Assembly (NCBI RefSeq): GCF_004210375.1
Contig: NW_027467782.1
Span: forward strand, 22,795,276-22,859,275
DNA from: Tachypleus tridentatus
Lineage: Eukaryota > Arthropoda > Merostomata > Xiphosura > Limulidae
Length of the DNA stretch: 64,000 bases
Reading direction: 5' to 3'
Every line of letters begins with the position of its first letter. Position 1 is the first letter of the stretch. Both the position numbers and the translations under genes were made by a program. Positions 14,219-64,000 of this stretch are shown here, piece by piece. Below the pieces are notes generated by a model. That model was given only the letters and a program-made list of their open reading frames with translations. It was not told where the DNA came from and searched no databases.

Positions 14219-14600
14219 TTTGGTTTCACTCGTTCTCGGTCTCGAGAATGAGTTGAAACCAGGTAACTTGACATTATAGTTATCTTTTGCCAATGTTTCT
14301 GATATAATTATGTTCTTATTATATTCTTTTACTTTGACTCTTTAGGTGAAGGAGTGACGTTGGTCATAATACTGATGAGTGAGACAAAGGTAGCACCGGA
14401 GAGACCAGCCAGACCAGATCCCGAAAAGCAGATGTCAAACTAAATACGAACATCAACATAAACGCGAAACGACCCGGTTCGGGGCATGGCAATAATGTTG
14501 CCTTGGCTGTGGGGAAAACGGGAGTGCCCTGAGAAAACCCACTGTCACAGGACAGGTGCCGAAAGATTTACCTGTCCTGTGCCCGAGACCTGAAAAAGAA
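14219..14600 (+). ncRNA. structured module M1 (candidate RNA) at the 3' end of LINE A
   Basis: A long hairpin (14,222-14,260, GGTTTCACTCGTTCTC pairing with GAGAATGAGTTGAAACC apart from a bulge and a G.T) runs into CAG|GTAACT. A possible 80-bp intron ends at TTTAG (14,345). Further on, GGCAA-TAATG-TTGCC forms a small stem. The core (14,509-14,542) has GTGGG pairing with CCCAC around CGGGAGTGCCCTG. Then CACAGGACAGGT (14,546-14,557) pairs perfectly with ACCTGTCCTGTG (14,570-14,581). The module is adjacent to the C-terminal end of LINE A on the opposite strand. A 22-codon frame (starts MSETKVAPER) lies between. Confidence 0.5.
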
Positions 14601-17352
14601 AATGCATAATATTTACGCGAGTTTTGTCCTTTAAGTACTTTGTTGTGTGATTTGTGATTCCTGAAGTATGTTGTATGGTGAAATAAATTTGATTGGTGCA
14701 CTGGTTAATTTACAGAGTGATGCAGTTAGTTTGTTTCTGTGTTCTGCTTTTAAATAGTATTTGTGTGACATTTCTGTTAGTCTGTTTTTTAGCGTTGGTA
14801 AGCTACTGATTTGATGTATATAATTTACTGGAGTGTGTGATTGTAGTCTGAATGCAGATCTTAGTATTTTGCTTTGTTGAACTTGGATTTTCTGGAGCGT
14901 GTTATTTGAATATTATATGTGACTTGACATCCATACTCTATTAGGGGACGTATGTAAGCCTTGTATATTTGGATAATGGTTTTTGGTGAGCATTTTGAGT
15001 GTTTGCTGGTAAGTATCATTAAGTGTGAAATGCGTTTTCTAATTTATGAGTGTATGTTGTCAGCATGCTTTTTGTGTCGAAAGTGACACCAAGGAATGTG
15101 ACACGTTTGCTCCTGTTAATGGGCGTATTTCAGAGTGATAATTTTACTTTTTCTAGATTTTTTCTGTCTTTTTAGTTTCCTGTAGAAGGTGATTGCTTGT
15201 GTTTTGGTTGGATTTAAAACTACTCTCCACTTGTTACCCAGGTCGAGACGTTGTTAAGTGATTCTTTCACACTAGACATGGCCATTACTGAGTTTCTGGA
15301 GGTATTCCAGATAGCGTTGTCGTCTGCGAATTATGAGTATGTATTAAACTGGGGAAAGGTATATCGCTGACAAAAATAATGTACAGTAGTGGAGAAAGGA
15401 CTGATCCTTGGGGCACTTCTGCAGTTATTTTGAAATATTTAGATATAGTTTTATTGATTTGTGCTGTTCTATCTGTTAGGAAGTTTGATATCCATTTAAC
15501 TATAGTAGGGTTTATTTTTAGATGAGTTAGTTTGTACTTAATGGCATTGTACTATACACTGTCAAATGCTTTTAACGTCTAGAAATACACCAATGGTTAC
15601 TTGGTTGTTACTAAAAGCTTTGTAGACTGATTCGGTGAGTCGTGTGAGGTGATCTGGTGTTTGCCTGTTTTTTCTGGAGGCATTTTAGGATTCTGGAAGG
15701 ATATTATTTATTTCACGAAAGTGAAGAAGACGGTTGGAGATAACCCTCTCCATCAGTTTGCCAAGACAGTTTAACAGACTGACAGGACGGAAATTATCTG
15801 GATTGGTCCTGTTAGTTTGTTTCTTTAGAATCATGGTTATGATGGCTTTTTCCAAGTGTCAGGGTAATATCCAGTTGTTAGTGAAATGTTCATGATGTTT
15901 GTGAGGTGTTGTAATAAGAGAGTAGAGCTTTTTTTCAGAATGTTTGGAATTTGGTCATGTCCGGGGGAGAAGTGTTTTTCACGTTTTTAATATTTATTTT
16001 TAGTTCAGTGATGGTAATTTTCCTGTTGATTGAACTTGAGTATGCTTACAGTGTCTCGCCAGGGAATTGTGGTGAGAATGAAGCTTGGTTTGTATTTATG
16101 AAGTTGTTGACGTGATGTTGGTGTTGTGTGTGTCAAAATCGACTAAATTTAGGTTGCTGAAGGAGCATTCGCAGTAGTCGGCTTTCTCTACGTCCGTCCT
16201 TGCGATTATATTGTTGTGTGCGATATGTTGAAGCATGTGATTTGGGTTTTTGTCTGAAGAAATGCTCTTGAATTTTTTCCAAAATTCTTTATTTTTTCTA
16301 AATTTGTACAAAAGTTTTGCCAATTAGTTTCTTTTGCTATTTTAATTTCTTGTTTAATTTTTGTATTTGTTCTGTTGATGTGTTGTGTTTTAATAGATGG
16401 ATCACGTGTAATATAGTGTGTTCGTTCGATTATCAGTGCATGAATTTCCGGTATTAAAGTCCATTGATTATGTGAGTGCTTTCTCCTTGTTTTAGGGATT
16501 GTGTTTTTATGGCTTTATGTATGGCTTGTGTAACTTGATTTACATAATTGTCTAGTTCTGTTTTGTTGTTAGCATGTTCAATTGGGTAGGGTAGATATGA
16601 GTCCAGTGTAGCATTGAAAGTGAGCCAGTCAGTTTTGGTATAGGTGTATGCAGAGGGAGTCACGTACGCCACAGCAGGGTGGCGCGGGTGAATCATACAT
16701 GAAATTGGGAAGTGGTCACTAGTGATTTCATCATGCACTTTAAAGTTAGAGATTCTGTTTACCATGTCCTTGGGTGCTATGATGAAATCAAGTACGTCAT
16801 ATGAGCCGTTGGCGGCTGAAAAGTGTGTAGGTGTATGGTCGTTTATTAGGTGCATTTTGTTACTAGAAAGAAATGTTTTATACACAACCTTCTGCGTGTG
16901 TTTCTGTTTCCCCTTAGTTCTGTATGCAGAGAATTAAAATCCTCAATAATAATTGGTTTGGGTTTGCGATTACCACATTTTTGAAGGAAGTTAATGTCAA
17001 TATCTTTAGTTGGTGAGCAATATATGGCTAGAATCGGAATAGTTAGCCGGTTGTTAAAGTGTATATTACAAAAAATTGTTTCATTTATGTTAGATCTAAA
17101 GGAATCTTCTATCGAGATTAAATGCGATATTTTCGTACTAAAGTAAGCTATTATACCTCTGTTGTTTTCTGAGTGAGGTATGCTGTGCGTGATGAATCCG
17201 GGGATTGTGGTGTTTTGTTTCTCTGTGCAAAGTGTTTCTGAAACGATGATTATGTTGGCATTTATATGTTTGTTTATGTTGTATATTTCTATCCTTTTGT
17301 CTTTGAGATTTCCTTGGCAGTTGATGTGTAAGATTTTAATGTGTTGTATCAT
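14601..17352 (-). pseudogene. LINE A ORF2: AP endonuclease and reverse transcriptase, decayed
   Basis: The start is ATG at 17,352 (MIQHIKILHINCQG). Endonuclease motifs seen are HINCQGN, IIVSETL, AIYCSP and IIIEDFNSLH (normally GDFN). The frame shifts at about 16.9 kb into SYDVLDFIIAPKD and SDHFPISC. Reverse transcriptase motifs appear near 15.4 kb as VPQGSVLSPLLY and FADDNAIW, preceded by a stop. The C-terminal thumb is hard to follow below 15.2 kb and ends near 14.6 kb at module M1. The clade is Jockey-like. The ORF overlaps the end of gag by a few codons. It cannot make an intact enzyme as written. Confidence 0.68.
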
Positions 17353-18826
17353 TGTGTTGTTTTATTTCCCTTGCATGAATTTTGAGTGAAAGATGGTGTG
17401 GTTTGAGGTGAGGAAGGTTAAAATAATAACTTGCAAGGCTACAAACAGATTTGAGTGACTCGTGCCTCGATTCGAATGTGGGGAGATCACTCAATTCTAT
17501 TAGCATTGCGAGTAAGTTTGTGGTGAATTCTGTGGGGTTGAATGCTTGTGTTGTTTTCGGGCGTGTGACGTCTGCGAAAGTACGTGTTGGTTGAGGTTGA
17601 GAGTGTTTGATTTGTGAGTCTGCTGGAGTTTGTAGTAAAGGTTGTTTGGTGATGTAAAGGGTGCCTTGGGTTTGATTGTTATTGTTCGTGGTTTTGAAAA
17701 TAAATCTATTACGTATTTGAGTGTATTTAGGGCAGCCTTTGTAGCTGGCTGCGTGAGGGCCTTGACAGTTTGCGCATCTCACTTGGTTACGCTCGTTTGG
17801 ACACTAAGCAACCTCGTGAGGTCCGCCACAACTCACACATCTGTCCTTGGCCATACAATTGGTTTTCGTGTGTCCGAACCGTTGACATTTGTAGCATTGA
17901 ATAATGGGCTTTTGGTGTGTTTTTCCTGTTCGGTCGTGTGTCTCTTGAAAAATAGGAAGCAACCGTTTTTAATAATTTGTCTTGATCGTCTTTATTGTTG
18001 ACGGTTACCTTGATCAGTGGCGTTTTTGTTTCGTTCTAAAGGATATGATTCGGTTTGATGATACAATGTCTTAGCCTTGAGTTTTTAATTCATCTGTGAT
18101 TTCATTATCTTCGATGTCGAAATCGACACCTCTGATAATGACAGTAAATTTTGGCGTGTTGTTTTTGGTGTACTAATGGTGGCTTGGACCCCGAATGGGC
18201 CAGTGGGCCAAAATATGTGCAAATTCTTGTGGTTCAGAGCATTTTAACATGATTCTTCCATTAGGAAGACGTTTGATGTCCTTAAACTGGATGCCCGGGT
18301 AATAGGCCCTCAGTTGTTTGACTATCTGTGGGATGCGTGTTGTGTTGTTAATTCCTTCAATGAACAGAGTTGGGATTCTGTAATGAGGAGAATCGTGTGT
18401 TTGTGTGACAGTGGTGGTGTTTTTAGAAGTAGTGGTGTTAGCGGTGTTGTTAGTATTCAGGTTAGTTGCGTTATTTTTTTTAGAACTAGTGGCTTTGTCA
18501 TTATTAACATTGGTTACGTTATTAACACTTGAATTTTTAGTATTGTTAGTAGTGTCATTAAGGTTAAGGTTAATAGTATTGTCCGAAACCATACTTACCT
18601 TGTCCTTTTTCTTCTTCAGCCTCCTCTTGTTTGAGGTCGCATTTGCTTCTTGAGATTCTTGTCTCGATAATTCTTCTGCTTCTGAGTATTCGCTTTCAAA
18701 ACTCTCTGTCGAACTGCTCAAGGATTCTGAGGCTGGTCCTTCGATCGCCTTGTTTAGCATTTCAATGATTTCTTCGTTTGATAGGGCTTTTCCGTTAGAT
18801 CGCGTTGCGATCTTCCTCCTCTTCAT
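17336..18826 (-). pseudogene. LINE A ORF1: gag-like nucleic-acid binding protein
   Basis: The start is ATG at 18,826 (MKRRKIATRSNG). A Ser/Glu-rich N-terminus and a long Asn/Thr-rich tract (about residues 85-150) lead into an RRM-like region (IPTLFIEGINNTTRIPQIVK). A shift near 18,173 is followed by three CCHC knuckles at about 17,930-17,740 (FGHTKTNC, then CVSCGGPH, then CANCQGPHAASYKGC) with one TAG inside. The C-terminal part (17,782-17,336) is open. In this family gag binds the element RNA in particles. The hydrophobic plus-strand frame over the Asn/Thr tract is only its shadow. Confidence 0.7.
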
Positions 18827-18841
18827 CCTGTTTGTTTTACT

Positions 18842-18857
18842 AGTCCTGATCAGGACT
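18842..18857 (-). promoter_or_regulatory. 5' leader stem-loop of LINE A
   Basis: AGTCCT-GATC-AGGACT, a perfect 6-bp stem with a 4-nt loop, 15 bases before the gag ATG. It is equivalent to the stem-loops at 27,069, 31,790 and 32,420, which have the same geometry but different bases. Confidence 0.45.
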
Positions 18858-19020
18858 AAGGGTAAACCTTTTAGAGTAAAATTTGGGAATTATGCACTTC
18901 AACAAAGTATACCTTGTCTTTAAAGTACGTGTCTCGCAGCTCTCGACTTACACGTCTACTCTGCTTGACGGCGGCCTTGAAACTCCAGAAACTGTATATT
19001 TCATTTCATTTACACTTGAC

Positions 19021-19440
19021 AGTAATTTTGGTTTTAAAGACCTTAGGGGACCCCTAAGGCAAACCAGGGGCGCTCAGAAACTTTTGTTTCTCTTCAACCC
19101 CGCGCATGATTGAGGGTTCAAGATCTCTCGATGAGCAAACTGGATCATTGGGTAATTTCTAGAGCGTGTTTTGAGATTAGTTGGATATGGTCGAGCAGGA
19201 GACAAACGAAGTCGGAGGAGAACGGGAGGGGCGGTACATAAAGTGGAGGAGTGTAGAAAGATACAGGAGAAGTTCGGGATAGGAAGACGTACCTGTTTTC
19301 AGGGCCTGGGTATAGGCATACCCAAAAATTTTGCTGTGGGGAAGGGAGTGCCCCGAGAAAACCCACTTTCACGGTCAGGGCGCCGAATAGTCTATCCTAA
19401 TCGTGCCTTAAATAGCAGGGAAATTTGTAACAAAGGTTTA
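19021..19440 (+). ncRNA. structured module M2 (candidate RNA) between LINE A and the R2-like element
   Basis: It opens with a palindromic hairpin CCTTAGGGG-A-CCCCTAAGG (19,041-19,059), then AGAAAC-TTTT-GTTTCT (19,076-19,091), and CTCTTCAACCCC. A plus-strand frame (LRLVGYGRAGDKRSRRR and on) resembles the RQEKLRK region of M3 only weakly. Near the end come GGGTAT-AGGC-ATACCC, the core with GTGGG/CCCAC closing GGGAGTGCCCC (19,337-19,365), and a terminal stem CACGGTCAGG (19,370-19,379) against CCTAATCGTG (19,396-19,405). It has no reverse transcriptase directly beside it, unlike M1, M3 and M4. Confidence 0.5.
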
Positions 19441-22200
19441 ATGAGGGGATAGGTATTGTTCTTTGACACATAGGCGATGCAGCTTTATTCGGAGCATAGC
19501 GGAATTTAGGCACTCTGGATCGCGACGGTGTATTCCAAACGGAGATCTTATTATACTTAAACTGGGGATAGAAACTAGGTGAGTATCTTGGTCGTCATCA
19601 TCGGTCTGAGGGATGACGAGGCATTTGGCTATCGATATTATACGATTACCCAATTTTACGTCAGGGTCGACGATATCGACAGATGCCGATAGTGAAGACG
19701 CATAAAGATCAATTCATTTGCACATTATACCTACATTGGTCTAACAACAAGAGGCTGTTTAAATTTCGTCATGTGTTGTGGGCGGTAATTGCCTTACCAG
19801 GCGAGGTGTTTTTCATTGTTCGCCTTCCACAACACATCTAGGGTGTAAAGCATCGCACGTCGGCACAAGAACTCTTCAAAATATTTAGATCTTATGTCCA
19901 GGTCCGCCAGTACTTCCGTGTTTCTCGGATACCAGGCACCGCGGGCACCAATTGGTAAACCGTGGAAAACAATAGAAGTTGCACCAGTTAGATCTTTAAT
20001 TTGTGGTGCGAGCTCTTCATAGCGGGCGACCTTGGAATTGTATGCTTCCTCGAGGGAGCTATACATGAGTTCGTATCGGACCGTCACATCAACAACCACC
20101 GCTTTATCCTCACGATGGAAGATCAGATCCGGTCTCCGACGCTCACCATTGTCTGTCTCAATGGTGGGTTCTACGAGTACTTTCCACCCTTTACTTACAC
20201 ATTCTTTAACTAAATGGTCACAGATCTTGTTGTGACGCCGTGTCCTCATAGATTTTAATTTAAGACATTGACCACTAAGATGACATATGGTCTCTCTCGG
20301 GGCAGAACAACTCCGGCATTTCGCAACTTCTTTGTTCGTACTCAAATTCCCTCGACTGAGGGCTTCCCGTGTGGGATATACATTTGCCCTCAAAGCAAGA
20401 CACTTCACCCAGTGGTGGTCCTTCATTCCCACTGGTTTAGGTAACCAGTGGTTGGCAGATCTTGAACCTTTGAAGAGACTTACACCGTGCCCTTGCAGGG
20501 CAAGACCTTCCCAGCGCTTCCTTTCCATATCCCTCCAATTAGAATGATATGTCCCAAAAGTCTGTTCGGGCTTAGGGATCGGAAGTCCCGCCTTTAAGGC
20601 AATTCATTGGATGTTATCGAGTACGTTATCAGTTTTGGCTAAATATGTAATAGTTTTGTCCGTTGAATGGACATGCCTTAATCATGTCTTGATCTTAAGA
20701 GTAGGAATCGGAGATTCCAACTTGACAAGTGCTAGGCCACTGTCTCGATAACTGGAATAGAGTAACCCGTCGGTCATGCAAGGCGGAAGATGACACCAGC
20801 TCTTCACGGCCTTTTTAATTAGATTGTCCATTTCTCTCAATAATTTACCACTCGATGCTCCCAATTCGAGTTGGTAAAGGAGCCGGGGTACCGCAAAACG
20901 GTTGAGAATCTCAACACGTTGGTGTGGTTTTAGTGGTACCCTCGAGATGTTATCTATCCACTTCTCGAGGAGAGGAAGTACAGGCTCGCTGTACACCCCG
21001 GTCCATGGACAGACATTGGCCCCTAGGTAACGGTAAGATTGTTCGGGTCCAATCATCGGGAGTCCTTCGCCATTAACTGTCCATGGTGAACAATTATTGA
21101 CGGTAAAGGTCTTACTGGACCCCCTAATCAGCATTCCGGCACTCTTCGAGATGTTCAGTGAGAGGCCGTTACCCAAACAGTAATCGTTCACGGTGTTCAA
21201 CATTTCCTGTAAGCTAACATGGTCTTTTGCCAGCACTGCCATATCATCAGCATACGCCAAAGTAGAAACTGGATCCAGCTTCTTGTTTAGCGATATGCCT
21301 CGGCCAACCTCTTCGATCTTACGGATGAGAGAATCCAGGGCAATGTTGAACAAAATAGGAGACATGGGGTCCCTTTGTTTAACGCCTCTGTAGAGGCGAA
21401 TAGGTTTGGTATTCTCGATACCAACCCTAAATGACGTTACACCATCTTGATACATGTCCCCTACAAGTCGGACGAAATGTGGGTGGACATGAAATCTGGC
21501 AAGGCTGGCTAGAAGATGTTCGTGGCCAACCATATCAAAGGCTTTACACAGGTCTAAAAAGGCCATAGCCAGAGTCCCATTTTGCTTGGCTTTCCTCATG
21601 ATGAAACGGAGCAGGAAGATGTTGTCTCTGCAATCAGTTTGAGGAATAAAACCACGCTGTCTGGGATTTATCTGCACGGCCTGCTCGAGGCGACGGGCCA
21701 TAATCCTGGAATATAACCTAAGCACGATGGAGGATATCGTGATAGGTCTCCAGTTTTTGACCTCGTGCAGATTACTCGAGAATGGGCGATCTCGTCAACC
21801 CATGTTTTGGTCACAACTTCGACCTCCTGCCAGGTTGCTTCGTCGAGTCCCTTCTGATCTCTCAGCTGACATATGTACGGACAGAACTTAGAACTCCGGT
21901 CGGGGATATTAATCCCTTTCCAGTCGAGCTCCTCGTACTGAACGACGTCAGCAGGATCTCCACGACTCTTGATGGTGTGTGAAGCAGTGCACACGGTTGG
22001 TTTTTGTTTATTAAGATATCGTCGTTTGTCAGAGATCTGTTTTGGAGTTTTGCCGGGTAGATGTTCTGCACAAAGAACATTGATGTTCTTTTGGCCCGAG
22101 TATACTACTACCATCTCTCGGAGGGTTCGTACTTCTTCCTAATTAATCGGTTATTTTTAACCGGGTGCAAGCCTTAGTCTGATTCCGGTCTCCTGATGAG
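19441..22200 (-). mobile_element. R2-like non-LTR retrotransposon E, 5'-truncated
   Basis: A single-ORF element with a central reverse transcriptase and a C-terminal restriction-like endonuclease, the domain order of the R2 clade. The 3' untranslated region is about 19,441-19,793. The 5' end is lost within the N-terminal DNA-binding part near 22.15 kb. It sits between modules M2 and M3 and in the same orientation as the Jockey-like neighbours. No 28S rDNA target sequence is seen on either side, so it is not in the classical R2 site. Confidence 0.7.
19794..22114 (-). pseudogene. R2-like polyprotein: partial Myb-like region, reverse transcriptase, restriction-like endonuclease
   Basis: The first frame (22,114-21,668) has a remnant of the Myb-like/linker region (HLPGKTPKQISDKRRYL) and shifts near 21.7 kb. 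Frame 21,725-20,682 (347 aa) is the reverse transcriptase: RGFIPQTDCRDNIFLL, AFLDLCKAFDMV (motif A Asp), RGVKQRDPMSPILFN (motif B), TLAYADDMAVL (intact YADD), then the thumb. A shift and a TGA between 20,690 and 20,600 separate it from the open last frame (20,528-19,794). That frame holds the CCHC cluster (CRSCSAPRETICHLSGQC) and the endonuclease core RRPDLIF plus KAVVVDVTVRYE. The enzyme class nicks target DNA and primes cDNA on it. Both catalytic centres look intact, and only about three lesions separate this copy from a continuous frame. Confidence 0.78.
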
Positions 22201-22284
22201 ATCTGCGCCGCGGTTTCGCGCTCTGCTGTCGTTGATTTTTCAGGTAGTCTCCACTTGTAGTATTGGTGCCTGACTGTGTCAGAC

Positions 22285-22910
22285 AGACAGATCTAGGTAG
22301 GAATTTTGGTTAAATTATTATTTCGTTCTGGTCGAACGAAAAATAACCAGGAGCAGTCAGAAACTACAGTTTCTCTTCACCCCACACAAGGCAAGAATAA
22401 ATTAACGAACTGATCACGGAAAAAGATGATTGGGCTGAAGTGGCGTGTAAGTTGTTCGACTCGCACGATGGTCACAAATTACCTGGAAGTCGATAGTTTA
22501 TTGAATTTGATTGAGGAGCGTCAGGAGAAACTGAGAAAGAGTTGCCGGCCAGGGAGACAACGAAGAATGACGAGGAAGGTCCAGCATCACATCCACCAAA
22601 GTTCGCATAATCACATCGTGAAAGAAGAAGTGGTTTGCGTTAACACAGAGTGAGCGAGCAGAGAGATGCAAGCAGTGCGTCAGCTTAGTTTTATCTTCTG
22701 ATTTTATAATATACATCTTGAACTTTTAAATTGACTAAAATGTGTTCTGGGAGGCCTATTTTCAGGGCTGGGATCTATAAACCCAAAGTAAGAGGAATTT
22801 TGATGTGGGGGGAAACGGGAGTACCCCGAGAAAACCCACTTTCACTGGTGAGGCGCCAAAAAAACTCAACCTCACCAGTGCCTGATGCTGGAAATGAAAA
22901 AGAGAACATG
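22285..22910 (+). ncRNA. structured module M3 (candidate RNA), the best preserved copy
   Basis: The first stem is TTTCGTTC (22,321-22,328) with GAACGAAA (22,334-22,341). The second is AGAAAC-TACA-GTTTCT (22,359-22,374), followed by CTCTTCACCCC. A plus-strand frame from ATG 22,471 (MVTNYLEVDSLLNL) runs about 60 codons with ERQEKLRK and Arg-rich parts. A likely acceptor TTTTCAG lies at 22,764, then TGGG-CCCA. The core is at about 22,805-22,839 (GTGGG/CCCAC closing CGGGAGTACCCCG). The last stem is CACTGGTGAGG (22,843-22,853) with CCTCACCAGTG (22,870-22,880), 11 perfect pairs. The minus-strand LINE C ORF2 stop lies only 36 bases beyond. Confidence 0.55.
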
Positions 22911-22915
22911 AATGG

Positions 22916-25687
22916 TTAGACACTTGAGTTTACATTCAGGGCGTATATGTAATTATAAGGCGAGAGATATCGCTGCCAAGAGCGTAGGGTGGCTGCTAAT
23001 CGTGGAATTTGTTTTGTTAATGATGTACGGTTATTTGCTTTTTTATAGTAGTTGGCTGCAAGATAAATGAGTCTCTTCTTAAGAGGCGGGATGGAGCTCG
23101 CTTTACTGACGTATGCTAACGGGGTGTATCTGGGCAGGCGAAGCGCAAGACGAATGGCAAGATTTTGGGCCCATTGTAATTTCTTACGATGGGAAGAGGG
23201 AGCGTTTACCGTGATCATGCTACCATCTTCAATTATCGGTCGAATGTATGTTCTGTAAATGGCGAGGATCGTGTTGGATCTACATCCTTGGACTATACTA
23301 CCAATACGTCTGAGGTAGTTGATTCGTTTATAGACTTTAGAAAGTATGGTTTGAAAGTGATTTGTCCATGTAAGTCATCTATTAAATGTAATGCCCAAGA
23401 ATTTTACAATAGACGAAAATTTAATTTCGGTGTCCATAATTTTAAGTTTAACTTTGGAAATAGATTTGTTTTTTCTCCCAATTTTGCGTTTAAATATTAT
23501 GGCCTGTGTTTAGTGGCATTTAGTGCAACCCGCCAGGTATTACACCAGGCGGTAATGCTATCTACTGTGGATTGGACTTTCGCGGCGGCGAGGAGGGGAT
23601 CGCGTGACATGCTCCATACCGCGATATCGTCGGCATATTGCGACGCATGAGTATATTTGAGCTGAGGAAAGGGGATATCATTAACATAGAGAATATACAA
23701 CAGAGGGCTGGGTACTGACCCTTGGGGAACACCTGCCGAGAGGCGAACAGTGTGAGATATAGTGTTATTGATTCTAACTTTAACTGTTCTATTGTCGAGA
23801 AAGCTGGTCCATCTCGTTAGGGTGGGCGGAAGGACAAATTTGAGGAGTTTGAATTTAAGCCCCTGGTGCCAGACTGAATCAAAGGCTTGTTTCACGTCTA
23901 AAAATAAGCCGACCGTGGTGTGATTTCTATTAAATCCTTGTGTAACTGATTCGGTTAACCGAACCAAATGATCAGCTGTCTGTCTGTTTTTCCGGGAAGC
24001 ATTTTGTATTTCAGAAAGTAGCTCCTCACTTTCCAAATACCATGTAATTCGAATGGCTAATATTTTTTCAAGCAATTTGCCAATGTTGTTAATTAAGCTG
24101 ATGGGTCTATAGTCTTTGGGGTTACTGGATGCAGGGTTTGTTTTAGGTATTACTTTAATTATGGCTGATTTGCATGAAGGCAGATAGTAGCCTGAATAAA
24201 AAGAGAGGTTAAATAAGGCTGTTAGATGTCTTAAGAATGAAGGTGATGCTTTTTTTGAGAATGATATTTCGTATACCATCCTCACCTGGGGCACTGTTTT
24301 TAATGTTTTAATTATTAATTTTATCTCAACCGGTGTTATTGGTTTGATTAGTTTTTGAAGAGCAGTAGAGTAGACATTGCTATTGTGGGGAAGACAGCAC
24401 GGGAAATGCGAACTGAATGCTGTTATATTATTTTGAATAAAATTTTGAATGTTACCCAGATGAGTATGATTAAAGTGCGGCAAGTTAGGAGTGGCGAAAA
24501 CCTGCTTATAGTAATCAGCTAATAAGTTGGCTTTCTCGAGGTCATTGGTTGCTGAGCTGTTATTATGTTTTAAATTGGGAATCCTATTGGTTGAAGTGTC
24601 GTTACAACTACTTTTAAACTTCCTCCAGAATGTGGCCAGATCTTTATAAGAATTATCTAGAGATGCACAAAACTCGGACCAGTTTTGATCTCTTTGTTCG
24701 TTAATGCGGCGCTTGATGAGGTTGGTCACCCGGTTAATTTGGGTTTTAATCATAGGGTTTCGGAAGTTATAAATTGACGTCTCAGTTTGCGCCTTTTGGT
24801 GATCAGTAAATGTACTTCACTAGTTAGTTTCCAAGAATTTGGATGACTAATAATACGACGTTTGGGAATTATTTTGTGTATAGCATCAGTTGTTGCGTTA
24901 GTGATGTGAAGTAGATAGTCATCAATAGATTCTGTGTCGTTTGCCTGAGTAATGACTGGAGGTAAATTTCGGTCAAGAAATTCCCAGAAAGAGTTCCAAT
25001 TCGCGGCCGAGTAATAAAAAAGATTTGGTTGAGTGTTTGGGGTTTGAGGATAGGCACCATTTAAAGTAACAGATATGGGGTAGTGATCACTTCAGATATC
25101 ATGGTGGACTGTGAAATCTTGAATGTAGGGGGATATTTTTGTCGTGTATAATGCAAGGTCCAGAATGTCTTGGGTCCCATCATGGTGAGTATGGGTTGGG
25201 ATATTGTTGCCTAATATGAGATCATGCTGAGAAATAAAATTATTAAGAATTAGACCATTTTGGTTGATTGACCTACAGTTAAAATTGCTATGTTTGGAAT
25301 TGAGGTCGCCAATAATAATTGAGTACCGGAAGCTATTAACTACATGGAGGAGTAAATTCGTGTTAGGGGTGGAAGAAGGGGGAAATATAGATACCAAGGA
25401 TTGCTATTTTGATTAGGATAGATAGAGGCAAGAATGTACTCATTAGTTGTGTCGATACAGAAGTCGGGAAATGATACATTAAGTTGTGTCAAGTGGAGTA
25501 TGGCGATACCTCTGCGACCTGGACTTTAGGTTTATTGATACATTGATAGCCTGGTAGGCTGAAATTACTATTCTCATTTAGAGTGTTTCACTAATGATTA
25601 TTAAATGGATGCTTTCTTTTTTGCATAATTTAAGTAATTCATATTTTTTGTGTCTGAAGTCGCCCTGAATGTTAACCGCCAAAATGT
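22916..25687 (-). pseudogene. LINE C ORF2: AP endonuclease and reverse transcriptase
   Basis: It begins just below the gag stop near 25,687 (NIQGDF, IIISETL). The endonuclease includes SIIIGDLNSKHSNF and HDGTQDILDLALY (25,397-25,092). A long intact frame, 24,753-23,497 (418 aa), covers the linker (KTQINRVTNLIKRRINEQ) and the polymerase: KDYRPISLINNIGKLLE, LFLDVKQAFDSVWH (motif A), SAGVPQGSVPSPLLY (motif B) and ASQYADDIAVW (motif C, intact). The thumb continues below with shifts and ends at TAG 22,916 after ALNVNSSV. Breaks are mainly in the endonuclease and thumb. The clade is Jockey-like, and the element lies in the same direction as all array members. Confidence 0.75.
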
Positions 25688-27042
25688 TTAGGAACTTACC
25701 TCAATTTGGTCCGTTGTGATATTATGAAGCATGATCTCTTCAAATTCCTCAGGGCTGAACGGTTGAAACTCAAAATAGTGGGGCATAGAATTTGCAATTC
25801 CTCTAAACATTTCTTTCTCGGATTCGTATTGACCTCCCCAGGCTTTACGTATAGTCTCAGCAACAAACCCTACTATACTTATAATGAGTCGTTTATGCAT
25901 CTCCTTAGACTTGGAAGTTTCACGACTACGGACTGTAGCCTCGGCGTAGGTCCGCTTGCGAGATGAAGGGGCTGAGGTAGCAGCTGGCTGGGGCTGCTGG
26001 ACTTGCTTCTGGGTTGTTGGCTTGACGGTATTGCTGGTCAGTGTTTAAACGGTCCATGTTAGTCGTTGGGTTAGTCGTCTTAAGATTTGCCGACAAGCTG
26101 GAATTGAGGAATTTTCCTCGTTTTAGAGCAAGGACTTGGAAATATTTGGGGCAACCACGATAGGAAGCCGCGTGAGGGCCTTAGCAGTTAGCGCAGCATG
26201 TGTTTTCCCTGTTTCTTTGGCAATCTTTTACTGTATGTAATCCACTGCATCTGACGCATCTGGGAGTAGCTTTGCAGGCGTTTTTGGCATGACCAAATTT
26301 CTGGCAATTGAAACACTGTAGCACTGTAGCTACAGCAGGTTGCCTGGACTTTTCAACTCGGAGTTTTAAAAACCACATGGTTATGCCCTTAGCAATTAGT
26401 TGATCGGCTAGAGCTATGTCGTTTATGGTAATTCGAACGAGCGGCGTGGGGAGGCCGTTCTTGGCCGATTTTATTCGTTCAATTTTGGATACTTTGATGC
26501 CTTGACTGGCTAATTCCTCTTGAATTTCTTGTTGGCTGATGTCACTATCGAGCCGTTTTTGCATATAAATTTAACTTGACTCCATTGAAAGCTTCTGGAG
26601 GCCGTGGTTTCAGGAGTTTCGCGTAATCCTTCGGTTCTTTACTTTGATGACTAAGCCACCTCGGGAAGGCGGCGAACCTCAATAAACGTCACGGAGGGAA
26701 AAAGAGCTTGGAGGTGTTTCGCGATATCTGGCTGGCGGGTAGTCGCAGGGATTCCCTCCACTATGATTGCCGGTGGCAAAACTGTTTTCTTCGATTGTGC
26801 GTGAGCGGTTTGGGAGGCTTCAAGGTCAGACCCTTTCAACTTTTGTCCGCGTTCATTGCCGTCAGACTTGGCTGGAGAGCTCCTGGGGAATTCCGGCCAG
26901 TGACCGAAGAGCTGCTTGTGTCAAGGTCAGATGACACACTGGGCGATTCGCCTTCGGAGGAAGGCATGTCTACCACTGTAGACTCGAGGAGTTCTAGTTG
27001 GCTACTGTCTGAAAGCGGCGGTCCGGAGGCTCGTGTTCTCAT
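25688..27042 (-). pseudogene. LINE C ORF1: gag-like protein with CCHC knuckles
   Basis: The start is ATG at 27,042 (MRTRASGPPLSDSS). A Ser-rich N-terminus is followed by a shift near 26,837, then AIIVEGIPATTRQPDIAKHL (conserved in all gag copies here). Another shift near 26.6 kb precedes the RRM-like segment and the knuckles CFNCQKFGHAKNAC, CVRCSGLHTVKDC and CANC. A TAA lies at the third knuckle (copy D has GG there). The C-terminus (25,900-25,688) ends DQIEVSS. It binds element RNA in family terms. Confidence 0.72.
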
Positions 27043-27068
27043 TGCCGAGATGTTGAGACGTTAAGACA

Positions 27069-27084
27069 AGCCCTGAAAAGGGCT
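27069..27084 (-). promoter_or_regulatory. 5' leader stem-loop of LINE C
   Basis: On the element strand this is AGCCCT-TTTC-AGGGCT, a perfect 6-bp stem with loop TTTC, 27 bases upstream of the gag ATG. Stem length and loop are those of the histone mRNA 3' stem-loop, but the invariant first G-C pair is replaced by A-T. Confidence 0.5.
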
Positions 27085-27239
27085 TAAATCTATTCTGAGA
27101 AAATACTCTTGGTTTAAGAGTTAAAATACAGACACACGAGACGAGAATAGTTTGACCAAAAAATACTTAGACTGGGACTTACGTAACTTGAGATGCTTGT
27201 TATGGAAAAGGAAAGAAGTCGATGAAAGCTCCGTCATCT

Positions 27240-28639
27240 ATCAATCCATCCGATAAACTTCCTAAAACCGCCTGACTGTGTCAAAAGCTTTTTGTATATT
27301 TAAGAATACCGCTAGTGTAGCTTGGAGTTTATTGAACCCTGTAAAAGTTGTTTCTATTAGTCGCACAAGGTGATCTGTAGTTTGTCTGTTTTTTACAGCC
27401 TGCGTTCTGAATATTAGACAGAATGTTGTCGTTTTCTAATTTCCAAAGCAATTTGTTTGTGATAATTTTCTCCAGTAGTTTGCCGATACAATTTAATAAA
27501 CAAATTGGTCTGAAGTCACTAGGGTGTTGCGAGTGAGAACCTTTCTTGGGGATTAGGATAATAACAGCTGATTTCTATGCATTTGGTAAATAACCAGAAA
27601 GAAAGGAGAGGTTAAAAAGGTTAGTGAGGTGTAAAAGAAGTTCGTTAAATGAATTTTAAGTATTATATTTGGTATGTAATCTTCTCCTGGGGTTTTGTTT
27701 TAAGTTTACTTATGTGTTTCTTGATCTCTACTGTAGAGATTGGGGTTGTAATATTATTAGTGGTGCGAATATGAGTAAGGTCAATTGGGAAGTTGACTGA
27801 GAAAAAGTTTGCTATTGTCTGTGATAATAGTTTACTTTAGACTAGTGTTTGTTAAAAGTTTTCCAAAAGGAGGCTGGGTTAGGTTTGAGGCTAGCAAGTT
27901 TAATACAAAAGTTGTTCCAGTTTTCTTTTTGTTGTAATCTTATGAGACGTTCTATATTGTTTTTGTCTTGGTTAATTTGTGGTTTAAGTAATGGATTGTG
28001 TGTAGCGATAATTCGCGGCGAAGCTTTCTTCTTGTAATGATCAGAGAGTGAATTTTGGGGGTTAGTTTCCAGGTATTAGGTGTGTTCTGTGTAGGTTTGG
28101 TTGGGACTACTTGCTGAATAGTTTTTGATATGGAAGTGGAAATTTTTGATAATAGCGTTCTATGTCGTCTATAGTGTTTGCAAGTTTTAAGTGTTCGGGG
28201 AGGAGTGTCTAAGATGTGGTTAAAGGACAGCCAGTTAATCTTAGAAAAGTTAAAGGAGTTATTAGGGGTTTTAGTGAATGTAGTTCTGATGGAATTATTC
28301 CAGATGGGGTTACTTAATTGGAAGGATAAGGGGTTATGATCTCCTCCGATGTTATCGTGTACCTTGAAGTTATGTACTAGGTGTGTGATTGATGGGGTAG
28401 CGATCGCCAGATCAATTAGACTTTGTGTTCCATTATGTGTATCTGTCGTTGAGTTGTTATTGATTACATTTAAGTTGTGTGTGTGCATGAAGTAGGCTAG
28501 AATTCTGCCAGAAGTGTTTACAGTGTATCCGCGGAGTGTAGGATGCGACGCGTTAAGGTCGCCGAGTATAACTACATTATTAAATGTGTTAATAATGGAG
28601 AACAGAAATGTAATGTAAGGGGTGAACTGGGGATATATA
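27240..28639 (-). pseudogene. LINE D ORF2, part left of the mariner: endonuclease end and RT start, 3'-truncated
   Basis: The frame 28,677-27,952 (its first codons lie in the mariner end) carries VVILGDLNASHPTLRG (endonuclease), DTHNGTQSLIDLAIA, HNFKVHDNIGGDHNPLSFQ and the linker LTPKIHSLIITRRKLRREL. Below 27,950 the reverse transcriptase continues in pieces (motif A region near 27.3 kb on the plus strand reads as complement of an AFDTV-like segment) and stops at about 27.24 kb without the YADD motif or thumb. The truncation meets the 5' leader of LINE C. Confidence 0.62.
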
Positions 28640-29995
28640 CAGGGTGAGCCAAAAGTAGGTGGACAGTAAAAAAACATTTATTTAGAGATCACGTATACGT
28701 ACAACTATATGTAATAAGACAATTATATTAATGAAAATAAAATGTTATTTATTAACGCAAATGCTCAAATTGTTTTCCTTCTTGATTTACACAGCTTTGA
28801 AGTCTCTCTTACGCTTCGACAACCATTTTTGCACAAGTCACTCTGGGCATTAATTTCTTGAAATGCATCTCTTATGTAATTTTTTAAGTCACCGACACGT
28901 GGTTTTTGACTATAAACTTTTTCCTTGAGTACTCCCCAAAAGAAAAAATCCATAGGGGGTCAAGTCCGGTGAACGTGCCGGCCAATCGATTGGACCTCTT
29001 TGACCAATCTATTTCAATGGAAATGTTTCATCAAGATACTCACGAACTCCTTTGGAATAATGTGGAGGGGCCCCATCTTGTTGAAAATAAAAGTCATGTA
29101 AATTAGGCTGTTGCTGTAACTGGGGAACAACTTGATTCCTTAGAATTTCGAGATACTTATTTCCTGTAATTGTTCCGTCCAAAAAAAAAAGGTCCATAAA
29201 CACCAGAACTTGAAATACCACCCCAAACATTGACACCAGGCTGATTTAGCTGTTGTTCTAATGTTAAATGCATGTTCTCACTATACCAGTAAACACAATT
29301 ATGTCTATTGACATGACCGGATAATTGAAAAGAAGCTTCATCACTCCACACAATGTTATCTAAAATTCCTGGGTTTTCTTCAATCTTGTTCAGCATAATT
29401 TCACTAAATTGCAGTCGCCTGTCTGGATCATCCTCCAATAAGCCATGAATTAGTTGCGGTCGATAGGGTTTCAACCCAATTTGTGTTATAATTCGCCTAA
29501 TAGAGGTTTGTGGTATGTTCAATTCCATAGAAGCTCTTCTGGTGGACTTGTTTGGACTTTGAACAAATGCATCGGCAATACGTTGCTTATTATTCTCTGT
29601 ACAGGCTGTTTTTGGTCGACCAGTTTTAGCAGCATTAAGGATTGAGCCAGTGGCGTTGAATTTGTCACGGATACGGTAAATGGTTTGTCTTTTTGGAGCT
29701 GGAGTATCAAATGTTTCAACCCACTTTCTCCTTACGGTTTCAGTATTTTGAGATTTCCAATATTCTTTTAACACCCATATTCTTTTATCTGTATTTAAAG
29801 TATTTGACATTATGGGTTCTATTAACAATCTAAAAAAAAAGAAAACAGATTAAATTAAAACAAATGTAATTATAAAATTGTAATTATATAACACAACTAA
29901 TATAGTTGCAACATAGTTATAATATACAATTGCATTAATATAACCGATACATAAACCTATTCCAAATGCTGTCCACCTACTTTTGGCTCACCCTG
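28640..29995 (-). mobile_element. mariner/Tc1-type DNA transposon in LINE D endonuclease
   Basis: Near-perfect terminal inverted repeats begin CAGGGTGAGCCAAAAGTAGG at 28,640, with the complement ending at 29,995. They extend about 29 bp and are flanked by TATA on both sides (TA duplication). The length is 1,356 bp. The excised sequence restores continuity of the LINE D endonuclease. The well-kept ends suggest that it is younger than its host. Confidence 0.9.
28765..29828 (-). pseudogene. mariner-type transposase, three or more lesions
   Basis: The frame opens near 29,828 (an ATG gives MSNTLNTDKRIWVLKEYW). Helix-turn-helix regions cover about residues 15-120. The first catalytic Asp is in NIVWSDEASFQLSG. 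At the A run near 29,175-29,185 the frame slips by one and continues as FFLDGTITGNKYLEIL, then FYFQQDGAPPHYS with the second Asp. A TAG replaces the expected Trp codon after FPLK (29,009). The third acidic region (WPARSPD) follows, then another slip near 28,955 into FFWGVLKEKVYSQKPRVGDL. The ending is about 28,765. It is a cut-and-paste enzyme by family. The A-run slip could be an assembly error, but the TAG is not. Confidence 0.82.
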
Positions 29996-30310
29996 TATAG
30001 CCAAAAGGGTTATGTCGGGTAGTGATGGTGATTTGATGTTACAAAGTATATATTCATGGGAAGTTGGTTTGTTGTGGTCGATCAAGGTGATGTTTAAGTT
30101 CTGTTTGTGTAAAAGTGCAATACCTCTGGTGTGAGTGGTTTTAGGTTTAGAAATAACCTTGTAATGGGGGAGTCGGAAATAGTTGTTATTGGTGAGTAAA
30201 GTTTCATTAATTGCAATAATAGAAGCATCTAAGTTAATAGCTAAATCTAAAAGTTCGTATTTTTGTAATTAAGTCCACCTTGAATATTAATATGTAAGAA
30301 GGTGAGGAAA
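29996..30310 (-). pseudogene. LINE D ORF2, N-terminal endonuclease part right of the mariner
   Basis: A minus-strand reading in two or three frames gives NIQGGLNYKN, NETLLTNNNYFRLPHY and RGIALLHKQNLN, matching the start of the endonuclease in copies A and C. It joins 28,639 once the mariner is removed. Confidence 0.5.
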
Positions 30311-30323
30311 TTTTTGGGCTTAC

Positions 30324-31663
30324 CTATTCGGAGGCTTCGGAGAGTCCATCGGTGATGTGTTGGTCGGGGATATCGGGTGATAAACCTCGGATCATCAAAT
30401 AGTCTTGAGCTGCTTTACATGCCGCTAAGAGGAACTGGTCACGATCGAGATTTTCGTTAGCAGCAGCAACCAGAACTTTAACGATGAATGCGATGACTTG
30501 TGAAGGCTTAATGACTGGCTGAATGGCAAGTTGTACTTCAGTTGGCTCTTGTTCCCTGTATCGTGGTTGTGGTGTTTGTTTTACTGTGTCAGCATAACTG
30601 CGGGTTTGTTGTTGTTTGCTAGTAGATGGTTGATTGACAAAGGTGGTTTGTTGAGGTAGAGTTGGGAACTTGCCGATAGGTACTGGTGCGGTTTGCACAC
30701 GTGGAGTCTTCGAGAATTTTGCCTTGATAGCGGCAACAAACTGGAATTTGGGGCAGCCTCGGAAACATGCCGCGTGTGGACCTCCACAGTTACTACACGT
30801 GGTGTTGTTCCTTTCTTTTGGGCAGTTGCTGATGGTATGATCGCCTGAGCATCGAACGCAGCGTGTTTTGGCGGTACAAGCGTTTTTCGTGTGTCCAAAA
30901 CGCTGACAGTTAAAACACTGCAAGATATTATTATCAGGGAAGTTAGGCTCCTCGAATCGAAAACGACGGAACCACAGAATGACTCCGTTTTTCAGGAAGG
31001 AGGTGGCCTGGGTGTTGTCAGTGACATTGATTTTGATAAGAGGCGTGACTTGCTGCGTTTCGCTGATCTTATTCTAGAGAAGTTAGAAAATTTAACTTCA
31101 CGTAGTATTAATTCCTCGTCAATTTCTTGGTCCAAGGTATCGAGAGGTATACCTCGGATGACGATGGTTTTTCTGGGGGAGTCTGAAGGTACCCGTTGAG
31201 TTAAGGGGATACCACCGAAAGCATCCGTTGGCCATGCTTTGAGAAGAATGGCGTAGTCTTTAGGACATTCGGTTTTGATAAGTATTCCACCACGGGGTAA
31301 TCGGCGAACGTTGTTGAACTTGACGCTTGGGAATAGTCGTTTAAGTTCAGCAGCTATTTGTAGTTGTCTTACTGTCGTGGGGATACCCTCTGCAATAATT
31401 GCAGATGGCATTTTAGTAGTAGCGGAGTTAGAGGAAGAGTTGGTAGCTTTTGAGTTAACCATGGGGCGTGATTCTGGGCACTTGCTGGTTTTGACCGAGC
31501 TAGTTGAAGTCGCAGTGAGGGTGGACAGAGAATCGCTAGAAGTGTTCGGGTCATCATCGGTAGAAAGAGCCGTGCTTGCGGTAGCTTGTAATTTCAGGCG
31601 CTCGGCGTTGGTAAGGGACGGGCCCTGCGAGCGGGTGGTCGGCCTGGGTATCTTCTTCTTCAT
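30324..31663 (-). pseudogene. LINE D ORF1: gag-like protein, nearly intact
   Basis: The start is ATG at 31,663 (MKKKIPRPTTRSQGPSLT). The Ser/Thr-rich N-terminus leads to AIIAEGIPTTVRQLQIAAEL, RRLPRGGILIKT and the RRM-like RKTIVIRGIPLDTLDQEIDE. A slip near 31.0 kb is followed by 30,923-30,324, which is open and contains CFNCQRFGHTKNAC, CVRCSGDHTISNC and CSNCGGPHAACFRGC. A Gln/Thr/Pro-rich linker (FPTLPQQTTF, TRSYADTVKQ) and a helical C-terminus ending GLSEASE follow. Essentially one lesion separates it from a complete gag. ORF2 follows within about 20 bases. Confidence 0.75.
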
Positions 31664-31789
31664 GGCCGTTCGTTTTTCCTGTGAGACCCCCAGAGTGGGA
31701 GTTTAGCTTGGTGGAAGACTTGGTAGGAAAAATAACACCTGTGGTAGAGCTTTAATTGAGAGTCTAGTAGGATCGAAAAAGCAATATGT

Positions 31790-31805
31790 AGCCCTGAAAA
31801 GGACT
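31790..31805 (-). promoter_or_regulatory. 5' leader stem-loop of LINE D
   Basis: On the element strand AGTCCT-TTTC-AGGGCT pairs with one U-G wobble. On the opposite strand the same position is a C-A mismatch, so only the element-sense RNA keeps the stem. It lies 126 bases before gag. Confidence 0.45.
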
Positions 31806-31914
31806 GAGGAAATTCGGATTGTATAGAACCTTCACAAAATTAACTGCACTAACGAAAGCTAGTAGCGTTCACTATCACTCGTTGACAACGTCGTCGTGAC
31901 TCGTGTCTAAGATT

Positions 31915-32560
31915 CCACCGCGAGGTAGGTGGCGCATGTTGTTGAACTTGACGCTTGGGAAGAGTCGTCGAAGTTGAGGCAATTTGGGGTTGTCTAACGG
32001 TCGCGGGGATACCCTCTATGATAATTGCAGGTGGAATCTTGATGGTAGTGGAGTTAGTGAAAGTATTGGTAGACTTAGAATTTTCCGTGGGACATGTTTT
32101 GGGGCTCTTGTTGGTCTTGGCAGAGCAAGATGAAGTGGCAGTGAGAGTAGAAATAGAATCACTTCATGTGTTAGGGCCCTCGTTGGTTGAGAGTGCCACG
32201 CTAGCGGCGGCTAACAATTTCAAGCGCTCGGTGTTGGTTAGGGACGGGCCCTGTGAGCGTGTAGTCAGTGTTACTTTCTTCTTTTTCATGGCTGTACGGT
32301 TTTTCAGTGAGACTCCCAGGGTGGGAGTTCAGCTTAGTGGTAGACTCAGTAAGGGGGGAAAAAGCACCTGCGGTATAGCTTTTAATAAGAGGCTTGTATA
32401 AATCAAGAAAGCAGTAAGTAGCCCTGAAAAGGACTGAAGTACTTTGGAATATAAAGAGCGTTTACTAAATCGACTACTATAGACGTTAGCTAGTAGCGGT
32501 CTCGTCTGTGACTCGTCGACTGAGCTCGTCTGTGTGACCATCTAACACGCTGTTCACTCA
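31915..32560 (-). mobile_element. LINE F: 5' end and first third of a gag, cut by LINE D
   Basis: A second gag start at about 32,290 (MKKKKVTLTTRSQGPSLTN) closely resembles LINE D gag, then AIIIEGIPATVRQPQI and RRLFPSVKFNNM to RHLPRGGIL. It stops abruptly at 31,915, where the LINE D 5' leader ends. The simplest reading is that LINE D landed in the gag of LINE F. One in-frame stop is present near 32,170. Confidence 0.65.
32420..32435 (-). promoter_or_regulatory. 5' leader stem-loop of LINE F
   Basis: Identical to the LINE D stem-loop (AGTCCT-TTTC-AGGGCT on the element strand), about 130 bases upstream of the LINE F gag start. Confidence 0.45.
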
Positions 32561-32585
32561 CCATTCTTTTGACATTAGTAGGAAG

Positions 32586-33190
32586 GAAACACTGGATAGG
32601 AATTTAGGTTAATTTATAATGTTGTTCACCAAAGGGAACGAAAAATAACCAGGGGTGGTCAGAAGCTACTGTTTCTCTTCACCCCACAAGCGACGAGATA
32701 AATTTTACGAAGTACGTGATTAGTGAAGTGAACTTGAGTGGCAAGATATTTGTTTATCTGAAATGGTGATTACAGATGACCCCGAAATTAACATACTTGT
32801 GTGACTGTTTAAGGAGCGTCGGAAAGAGCTGCGGAGGAGGCCTCCCGAGTCTGTAAGAGATCAAAGACTGAGACGAGAGACTCAGCAACTCATTCATCTG
32901 CTTGAAGGTTTCTTAGACGTAAATGTAGTCGTAAAAAGATGAAATGAGACGAGTAGAGAGATGCAAACAGTACGTCAGCCTGGTTAAAACTCATAATCTA
33001 AATTAACCGAAATTTTGATACTAGAATTTGATGATTTAAGATGCATCCTAACTAGCTCATTTCAGGGCATGGACCTATAAATCAAAGTATTTTGATGTGG
33101 GGGAACGGGAGTACCCCGAGAAAAACCACTTTCACAAGACGAAAGAAAACAACCCCACTAGTCCCCAACGCTGGAAGTAAGAAGGCATAC
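32586..33190 (+). ncRNA. structured module M4 (candidate RNA)
   Basis: The start has GTTC/GAAC (32,62x-32,639) and AGAAGC-TACT-GTTTCT (32,661-32,676, one G-U pair on the plus strand), then CTCTTCACCCC. The small frame from ATG 32,763 has an early stop but keeps FKERRKELRRR, parallel to IEERQEKLRK in M3. A likely acceptor TTTCAG lies at 33,064. The core is at about 33,098-33,129, with GTGGG, CGGGAGTACCCCG and ACCAC (one pair lost). The terminal stem has lost its 5' arm; CCCCACTAGTCCCC remains. The RT thumb of LINE G follows on the minus strand. Confidence 0.48.
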
Positions 33191-60951: not shown

Positions 60952-60954
60952 AAA

Positions 60955-63900: not shown

Positions 63901-64000
63901 GAATCCCCTCTACAGCTTCTGTGTTCACTGTTGAATTGTATGCCATATCTCTTGCCCTGGATCATATTGCAGCTGAGCAGTACTCCATCTACACTATTTA
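60955..64000 (+). pseudogene. LINE ORF2: AP endonuclease, reverse transcriptase, start of RNase H
   Basis: ATG at 60,955 (MATLIQWNCRGLRSNLDD). Endonuclease: SLQETFLKP, then a one-base shift at about 61,115, TVCSLYLSPGE, FLILGDFNGHHQLWE and LGSDHFPI. Linker 61.7-62.0 kb (HPWWNPACHLARKGQKRAW). Polymerase: TSVGPDDVHYDMLHHLS, a TAA at 62,429 after WRQAII, YRPIALT, TLERMVNARLVWFLE, FFDIEKAYDT (motif A), EVPQGCVLSVTLFS (motif B) and GLYVDEFHIS, in which the second catalytic Asp of the usual VDD is Glu. The thumb ends near 63,750. RNase H begins at about 63,815 (IYTDASKSGNSVGSAM, then ELYAISLALDHI) and runs off the end. Confidence 0.78.

Follow-up and report, generated by a model that had tools for sequence, protein, structure and literature searches.

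A chain of hairpins with a covarying stem in the 3′ untranslated regions of Jockey-like LINEs of Tachypleus tridentatus, and its possible relation to V-SINEs

A stretch of 64,000 nucleotides of the horseshoe crab Tachypleus tridentatus (assembly GCF_004210375.1, contig NW_027467782.1, positions 22,795,276–22,859,275), referred to here as the window, contains four copies, M1 to M4, of a structured sequence module, and the question is to which element this module belongs and what maintains its structure. An earlier note had placed the module on the plus strand and described it as a core, in which GTGGG pairs with CCCAC around a CGGG/CCCG hairpin, followed by a single stem of variable sequence. 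Comparison within the window indicated that M1–M4 are indeed diverged copies of one module, and all four were located approximately at the positions given in the note. The module is a part of the 3′ untranslated region (3′UTR) of Jockey-like long interspersed nuclear element (LINE) retrotransposons on the minus strand. The plus-strand assignment was therefore reversed: coding sequence of reverse transcriptase (RT) ends shortly before M1, M3, and M4. The parts of the modules, with hairpins designated A, C, D, and E, are given below; the training set of model R1 included M1–M4, so the bit scores of M1–M3 were obtained on training members.

14509–14542, minus strand: M1 core (GTGGG..CCCAC), model R1 100 bits
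14546–14581, minus strand: M1 hairpin A, 12 bp, the variable stem of the earlier note
14488–14502, minus strand: M1 hairpin C (GGCAA..TTGCC)
14222–14260, minus strand: M1 terminal hairpin E with the stem GGTTTCAACTCATTCTCG/CGAGAACGAGTGAAACC, unlike M2 and M3 in stem sequence
14590–14604, minus strand: M1 tract resembling a 3′ splice site, CATTTTCTTTTTCAG
19336–19366, minus strand: M2 core, model R1 92.9 bits
19370–19405, minus strand: M2 hairpin A, absent from the minimum-energy fold of M2 alone
19308–19325, minus strand: M2 hairpin C
19030–19101, minus strand: M2 hairpins E (19030–19065) and D (19067–19101)
22805–22839, minus strand: M3 core, model R1 131 bits
22843–22880, minus strand: M3 hairpin A, 11–12 bp
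22769–22785, minus strand: M3 hairpin C
22308–22383, minus strand: M3 hairpins E (22308–22349) and D (22350–22383)
22888–22905, minus strand: M3 tract resembling a 3′ splice site, TCTCTTTTTCATTTCCAG, directly past the RT stop codon
33097–33129, minus strand: M4 core found with model R1, one outer-stem pair missing, as the earlier note had said
33133–33165, minus strand: M4 degenerate hairpin A, partly deleted
32608–32685, minus strand: M4 hairpins E and D; for the E region alone the best structure is not E
47056–47182, plus strand: weak fifth copy with the core GTAGGTTTTCTCTGAGTATACTCCGGTTTGTTTTACA, model R1 19.2 bits, E-value 0.002

The strand and the context of the module were evident from its coding neighbours. 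Much of the region of 14–38 kb of the window consists of minus-strand retrotransposon open reading frames (ORFs) encoding gag with CCHC knuckles, endonuclease (EN), and RT, and three LINEs lie upstream of modules.

14670–18889, minus strand: LINE E1 upstream of M1, with gag (17336–18889), EN (16454–17361), and RT (about 14670–16427)
22916–26806, minus strand: LINE E3 upstream of M3, with gag (26070–26806), EN (24750–25685), and RT (22916–24816)
33201–35289, minus strand: LINE E4 upstream of M4, a gag piece closely followed by the RT C-terminus, with an insertion at 33347–33818

M3 and M4 directly follow the RT C-terminus, and their similarity is continuous from RT via the module to the shared 3′ end (22298–23065 with 32597–33344); a further similar block was found at 23070–23580 and 33819–34331. 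M1 lies downstream of the broken RT of another element, which has no long open frame and whose RT match stops 127 nt before the M1 core. In the LINEs of the window, RVT_1 (E-value 4.9e-33 in E3) and Exo_endo_phos_2 were over the Pfam cut-off, while PRE_C2HC (0.0011 in E3), zf-CCHC, and the weak PF14529 match of the E1 EN (0.0012) were below it. The E3 gag carries CCHC knuckles, three as counted by eye. RNase H was not found by Pfam in the LINE piece ahead of the module. Since coding sequences precede M1, M3, and M4 in this way, the module is to be read on the minus strand, as a component of LINE 3′UTRs.

Regarding M2, it adjoins an R2-like LINE and lies downstream of it. This LINE (19797–22138, minus strand) comprises RT and, by eye, a C-terminal stretch resembling a zinc finger and an endonuclease; it has 149 matches in the genome, many of them about 93–97% alike, and one fully identical match at C11:848982 may be a duplicated segment. 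The R2-like LINE was considered as the owner of M2 and rejected: the module was absent from up to about 700 nt after six of six other copies examined among the 149 matches, and the match of the window copy to its own 3′UTR stops after 192 nt. M2 is therefore a separate, truncated piece.

The module is repeated throughout the genome. The pattern GTGGGTTTTCTCNGGGNACTCC had 1509 exact matches in the 2.17-Gb assembly and none when reversed, and a second core pattern with core pair 2 left open had 1500 versus 0. Coagulin (PF02035), a protein known from horseshoe crabs, gave 19 matches in this assembly and none in 14 control genomes, in agreement with the host. The copies examined numbered 88. The core pattern is present in 76 of them (M1–M4 and 72 genome copies, which came from the initial 30 loci and another 40 regions among the 100 places listed for GTGGGTTTTCTCNGGGNACTCC), and the remaining 12 were taken from 42 copies of a V-type pattern described below. 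The sample was not random, and it included duplicates of one insertion (L012/L013, L084/L085, L078/L080/L081). Coding sequence of RT (41 copies) or gag (22 copies) on the same strand ended less than 600 nt upstream in 63 of the 88. The gag-only elements behind which the module also occurs are half-LINE families (L024 at 195–1340 on the plus strand, L025, L026, L019, L030, L013) related to LINE gag; the L024 ORF has 381 aa from stop to stop and no zinc knuckles by eye. The 3′UTRs behind gag-only elements can be young, as in L009 and L010, which are 99% alike over 464 nt at different places.

Neither RT nor gag was found less than 600 nt upstream in the other 25 copies, 18 of which start at or inside the module. 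The mapped 5′ extent from the core was at most 75 nt in 15 of the 25, three (L078, L080, L081) represent a single insertion, at which an 11-nt flanking repeat was seen by eye, and seven extend further without a match. Mapped 5′ ends crowd near hairpin A: among all 88 copies, the end lay at most 75 nt from the core in 18, and the two following intervals of 75 nt held 2 and 7. These figures are blurred by alignment edges, and LINEs would be expected to leave short copies in any case.

In sense order, the stop codon is followed by a pyrimidine tract with YAG, hairpin A, the core, hairpins C, D, and E, and a short repeat tail, for example of GTTTA units in one type. Hairpin A has a near-constant CAC/GTG base, six variable pairs, and a near-constant GG/CC top; its loop ends with UUCGGCG in most copies. 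A spacer of three bases, mostly AAA, separates it from the core, GTGGG-UUUUCU-[inner hairpin]-CCCAC, whose inner stem reads CGGG/CCCG in the majority of copies, with CCGG/CCGG taking its place in another LINE lineage. The core pairing described in the earlier note was recognised, if not uniformly: inner pair 2 is A.C in M1, and one inner pair is missing from M2. Hairpin C is of the GGAUC..GAUCC type, hairpin D of the form GGGG..GAAGA-GRAAC/GUUYC-UGA..CCCC, and terminal hairpin E has at least three sequence types in addition to that of M1. Thus, the variable stem of the note is present and is not the only one, since the stems of C, D, and E also vary in sequence. Hairpins D and E were read only where a motif search matched, which gave nothing in 21 of the 88 copies and a few misplaced matches.

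The claim that whole stems had been exchanged with pairing kept, as in a selected RNA structure, was borne out for hairpin A, which covaries. At least 9 of its 11 pairs are kept in 72 of 87 copies (L082, with an altered core start, was skipped), with a mean of 9.93 for the arms of the same copy. When arms were mixed between copies, the mean was 7.51, and 3332 of 14,558 draws (23%) still reached 9. The offset of hairpin A is constant among copies, contrary to the alternative of unrelated hairpins at different offsets. Six copies have half-changed stems, CACACGACAGG with CCTGTCCTGTG, which are intermediate between two fully paired forms.

Two alignments were scored against 500 shuffles each. The broad set, A2, had 29 rows including M1–M4; of 35 representatives, the 7 that lack hairpin A (L027, L042, L046, L049, L055, L059, L067) were not used. 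Its covariation score was 0.280 versus 0.149 ± 0.010 after shuffling, a value reached by none of the shuffles, and slid pairings gave at most 0.105. Paired cells amounted to 88.9% versus 81.1%, and two-sided cells to 61 versus 23.9 ± 3.8; pairs with two-sided change numbered 10 versus 7.6, and 32 shuffles reached 10. The 29 rows of A3 were chosen for intact hairpin A: in addition to the seven representatives absent from A2, M4 was excluded, as were L008 (used in alignments A1 and A2 only), L017, L031, L032, L069, L070, L073, L077, and L078, while L030, L045, L048, and 7 of the 12 V-type copies were added. The A3 score was 0.479 versus 0.141 ± 0.016 (none of the shuffles; slid at most 0.082), with 94.0% versus 76.4% paired cells and 84 versus 27.2 ± 4.5 two-sided cells; pairs with two-sided change were not above the shuffles in A3 (7 versus 6.9; 404 of 500).

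Pairing was also conserved at single positions. At core inner pair 2, a hand tally of 100 places listed of the 1500 gave 93 paired; there, a 3′ G occurred only with a 5′ C or T (five of five, two in duplicated loci), an association with a Fisher p of 8e-8 when relatedness is ignored. Inner pair 2 of hairpin D was G-C in 43, A-T in 13, and A.C in 1 of the 57 parseable copies of 88. The RTs of E3 and E1 share about 35% of their residues, while the cores of M3 and M1 differ at few places. Folding z-scores of M1, M2, M3, and M4 were −2.86, −0.01, −4.73, and 0.19 on the minus strand and −4.80, −0.03, −3.50, and −1.24 on the plus strand. Folding alone proves neither structure nor strand; the case stands on the comparison of copies.

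Near-constant loops and junctions together with compensating stems look like an RNA that is recognised by protein. By analogy with known LINEs, we consider it probable that the module is an RNA recognition element for retrotransposition in the 3′UTRs of LINEs and gag-only half-LINEs. It forms the 5′ half of the 3′UTR in minus-strand Jockey-like LINEs and the related gag-only half-LINEs, as a chain of hairpin A, the core, and hairpin C, with D and E close to the 3′ end. Recognition of the hairpins by the retrotransposition machinery (ORF1p, ORF2p, or both) would be the reason why LINE RNA retains this chain. Loops, junctions, and core would then stay near-constant for protein contact, and stem sequences would be free to change while pairing holds. 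The LINE’s own proteins may thus bind the module, which would help to choose the template for target-primed reverse transcription. Excerpts of a study of two stringent zebrafish LINEs describe a 3′ stem-loop that is required and bound by the ORF2 protein; in one of these LINEs, a stem swap left about half of the activity, and a loop swap caused a far greater loss (PMC4176376).

Several observations weigh against this interpretation. In the stringent LINEs considered here, the recognised stem-loop lies in the 3′ tail, which is the position of hairpin E; hairpin A and the core lie some 250–500 nt upstream and may therefore do something else. The outer GTGGG/CCCAC stem of the core showed no two-sided change in A2, the rows of A3 were selected for intact hairpins, and M2 and M4 alone fold no better than shuffles. 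Relatedness among the copies, a few of which are duplicates, means that the shuffle counts cannot be taken as probabilities. Most letters of the core were set by the search patterns, and all 72 genome copies with the core pattern came from contig 1. In at least three of the 63 copies with upstream coding sequence (L038, L053, L059_1445) the mapped extent is below 75 nt, so that this coding sequence may be a neighbouring element’s.

The same arrangement could be read in other ways. If host proteins read the module as a nuclear export, stability, or translation element of the LINE mRNA, its place soon after the stop codon, the conserved core and loop letters (UUCGGCG), and its occurrence behind gag-only ORFs with no RT between would be accounted for. 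Nothing specific speaks against such a role, which we regard as unlikely; different lineages in one host could equally share the module by descent. It is likewise rather improbable that the module is an acceptor exon, preceded by a real 3′ splice site through which transcripts of the LINE or of the host are joined to the 3′UTR; the resulting short RNAs, tailed by LINE sequence, would then seed SINE-like elements (short interspersed nuclear elements), and the hairpins would mainly protect or regulate the junction. Signals resembling splice sites are themselves frequent: YAG preceded by at least 11 pyrimidines of 15 was found at −70 to −38 in 56 of the 63 copies with upstream coding sequence, versus 4.4% of 32-nt coding windows and 9.0% of 3′UTR windows, and a branch-like YTRAY at −100 to −62 in 40 of the 63 versus 26% of control windows. 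The tract occurs with all three 3′-end types and in gag-only elements, and some 5′ ends map to the 5′ edge of hairpin A near YAG (L010, L051, L077, and L078, the last via its flanking repeat). At the same time, a T-rich tract past a stop codon may have other causes, and no copy onto which a foreign 5′ exon had been spliced was recognised by eye, donor sites having not been searched systematically. Gag-only elements retain the tract and are therefore not products of this splicing.

Shared ancestry alone, with the module as an unselected LINE remnant and its hairpins due to chance, would fit the many old and broken copies and the folding of M2 and M4. It is contradicted by compensatory stems in several lineages, by near-constant loops, and by a core little changed between elements with so few RT residues in common, and it is very improbable. 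For hairpins A and D, interpretations as a ribozyme or as box C/D RNA were weighed by eye only and dropped.

The earlier note had mentioned a similar motif in fish and other animals and considered the structure unnamed. The link to a motif common among animals found support; the putative counterpart is the core of V-SINEs, which we take to be CTCCGGGTACTCCGG with a CCGG/CCGG inner stem, while M1–M4 have CGGG/CCCG or decayed forms; the V domain presumably holds GTGGGTTTTCTCCGGGTACTCCGGTTTCCTCCCACAG in SINE sense. The absence of a CCGG/CCGG stem from M1–M4 led us to search for this form. The putative V-type pattern GGTTTYCTCYGGGTRCTCCGGTTT had 42 exact matches in the genome and none in the control; its likeness to V-SINEs is presumed. 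All 12 copies fetched have RT C-terminal sequence upstream in the same orientation (11 within 300 nt, L093 at about 1 kb) and thus lie in LINE 3′UTRs, and in all 11 that were scored, hairpin A retains 9 or more of its 11 pairs. The V-type pattern is, thus, a real motif of LINEs of this genome. A box-B-like motif was absent within 260 nt upstream of all 88 copies, no V-SINEs headed by tRNA were seen in the sample, and ARAGORN detected no tRNA in the 12 V-type loci. We take GTTTGCATGTTCTCCC to be the 5′ part of the V domain, and we take the core of the module to correspond to the V-SINE central domain, which makes the term unnamed doubtful. That domain is named in passages of two papers (PMC6887750; PMC3747384), and GTTTGCATGTTCTCCC is part of a zebrafish primer in an excerpt of a third (PMC8618266). 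Literature searches by core letters found no printed V-SINE core sequence in open-access papers; matches in turbot papers were 18S primers and were rejected.

The LINE module of the horseshoe crab may show the origin of the V-SINE core. One can tentatively propose, with somewhat more doubt than confidence, that the V domain of V-SINEs across animals is a captured hairpin module of a LINE 3′UTR, which LINEs would have kept for recognition of their own RNA from a time that predates the chelicerate–vertebrate divergence. Several divergent LINE lineages of the horseshoe crab would still carry this module, preceded by a 3′ splice site able to fuse any transcript to it and so to produce new SINE-like RNAs. 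Kojima (2018) reportedly derived SINE bodies from the 5′ portions of RTE and Vingi LINEs and not from 3′UTRs. No earlier report of the V core in LINE 3′UTRs was recognised among the open-access literature listed, which is weak evidence of absence. The conservation of SINE central domains is posed as an open question in a passage of PMC6887750; a covarying domain borne by LINEs with a coding context makes this question testable. Should the domain serve LINEs as a recognition element, retrotransposition assays of its mutants would be possible.

Compared with known systems, the module would share with the V-SINE central domain the presumed GTGGGTTTTCTCCGGGTACTCCGGTTTCCTCCCACAG, the orientation of the 12 fetched copies being the same. 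It differs from that domain in following RT or gag and in its long hairpin A with a changeable stem. The elements themselves resemble Jockey-group LINEs, as we take these to be, in the three gag knuckles, the weak PRE_C2HC match, EN, RT, and the lack of a Pfam RNase H match; the assignment to this group, made by domains, is provisional. Gag-only relatives and head-to-tail runs recall what we assume of HeT-A and the half-LINE HAL1, from which L024 differs in its gag-only ORF without visible zinc knuckles. In these runs (window 14000–35000; L022–L024), LINE and half-LINE copies each start just past the preceding tail, which looks as if that tail were a target. The partner LINEs of V-SINEs listed in an excerpt of PMC3747384 are HER1, CR1-3DR/ZfL3, and LfR1. 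Tails of the stringent LINEs UnaL2, ZfL2-1/2-2, and SART1 are similar in 3′UTR hairpins and short 3′ repeat tails, and these LINEs have SINEs with common tails, according to parts of PMC4176376 and PMC3747384. Unlike these tails, the module has several hairpins over about 400–560 nt, conservation is strongest well away from the 3′ end, and a signal resembling a 3′ splice site precedes it.

Searches with other means were also made. The string AGAAAACCCAC with at most one mismatch occurs 8 times in the window versus 1.8 expected, a count reached in none of 100 shuffles. It was dropped as a proxy of the module because seven of eight fetched matches lie elsewhere, with six in a single different repeat. 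An Rfam search of the window gave no matches at gathering score, and core scans of viral and prokaryote genomes gave none, as expected for an animal repeat. Another abundant repeat (L002–L007, near position 1500) holds CTACAAGTGGGTTTTCTCG about 70 nt past a stretch resembling GGTCGAAACGTTGTT; the abundant repeat of L002–L007 has 15 letters in common with the module (AAGTGGGTTTTCTCG), by chance or kinship.

Further elements were found in the window. A mariner-like element, recognised by eye at 28636–29999 with 31-bp perfect inverted ends, lies in a LINE between gag and endonuclease. The insertion that interrupts the C-terminal part of RT in the M4 LINE (33347–33818) resembles a miniature inverted-repeat transposable element and has 27-bp inverted ends that are 85% complementary. 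A tandem duplication of about 615 bp, 75% alike, occupies 31279–32520, where another LINE copy on the minus strand has its gag region. Finally, a LINE of a different kind, with gag, EN, and RT matches, was found on the plus strand at 60062–64000 and runs past the end of the window.

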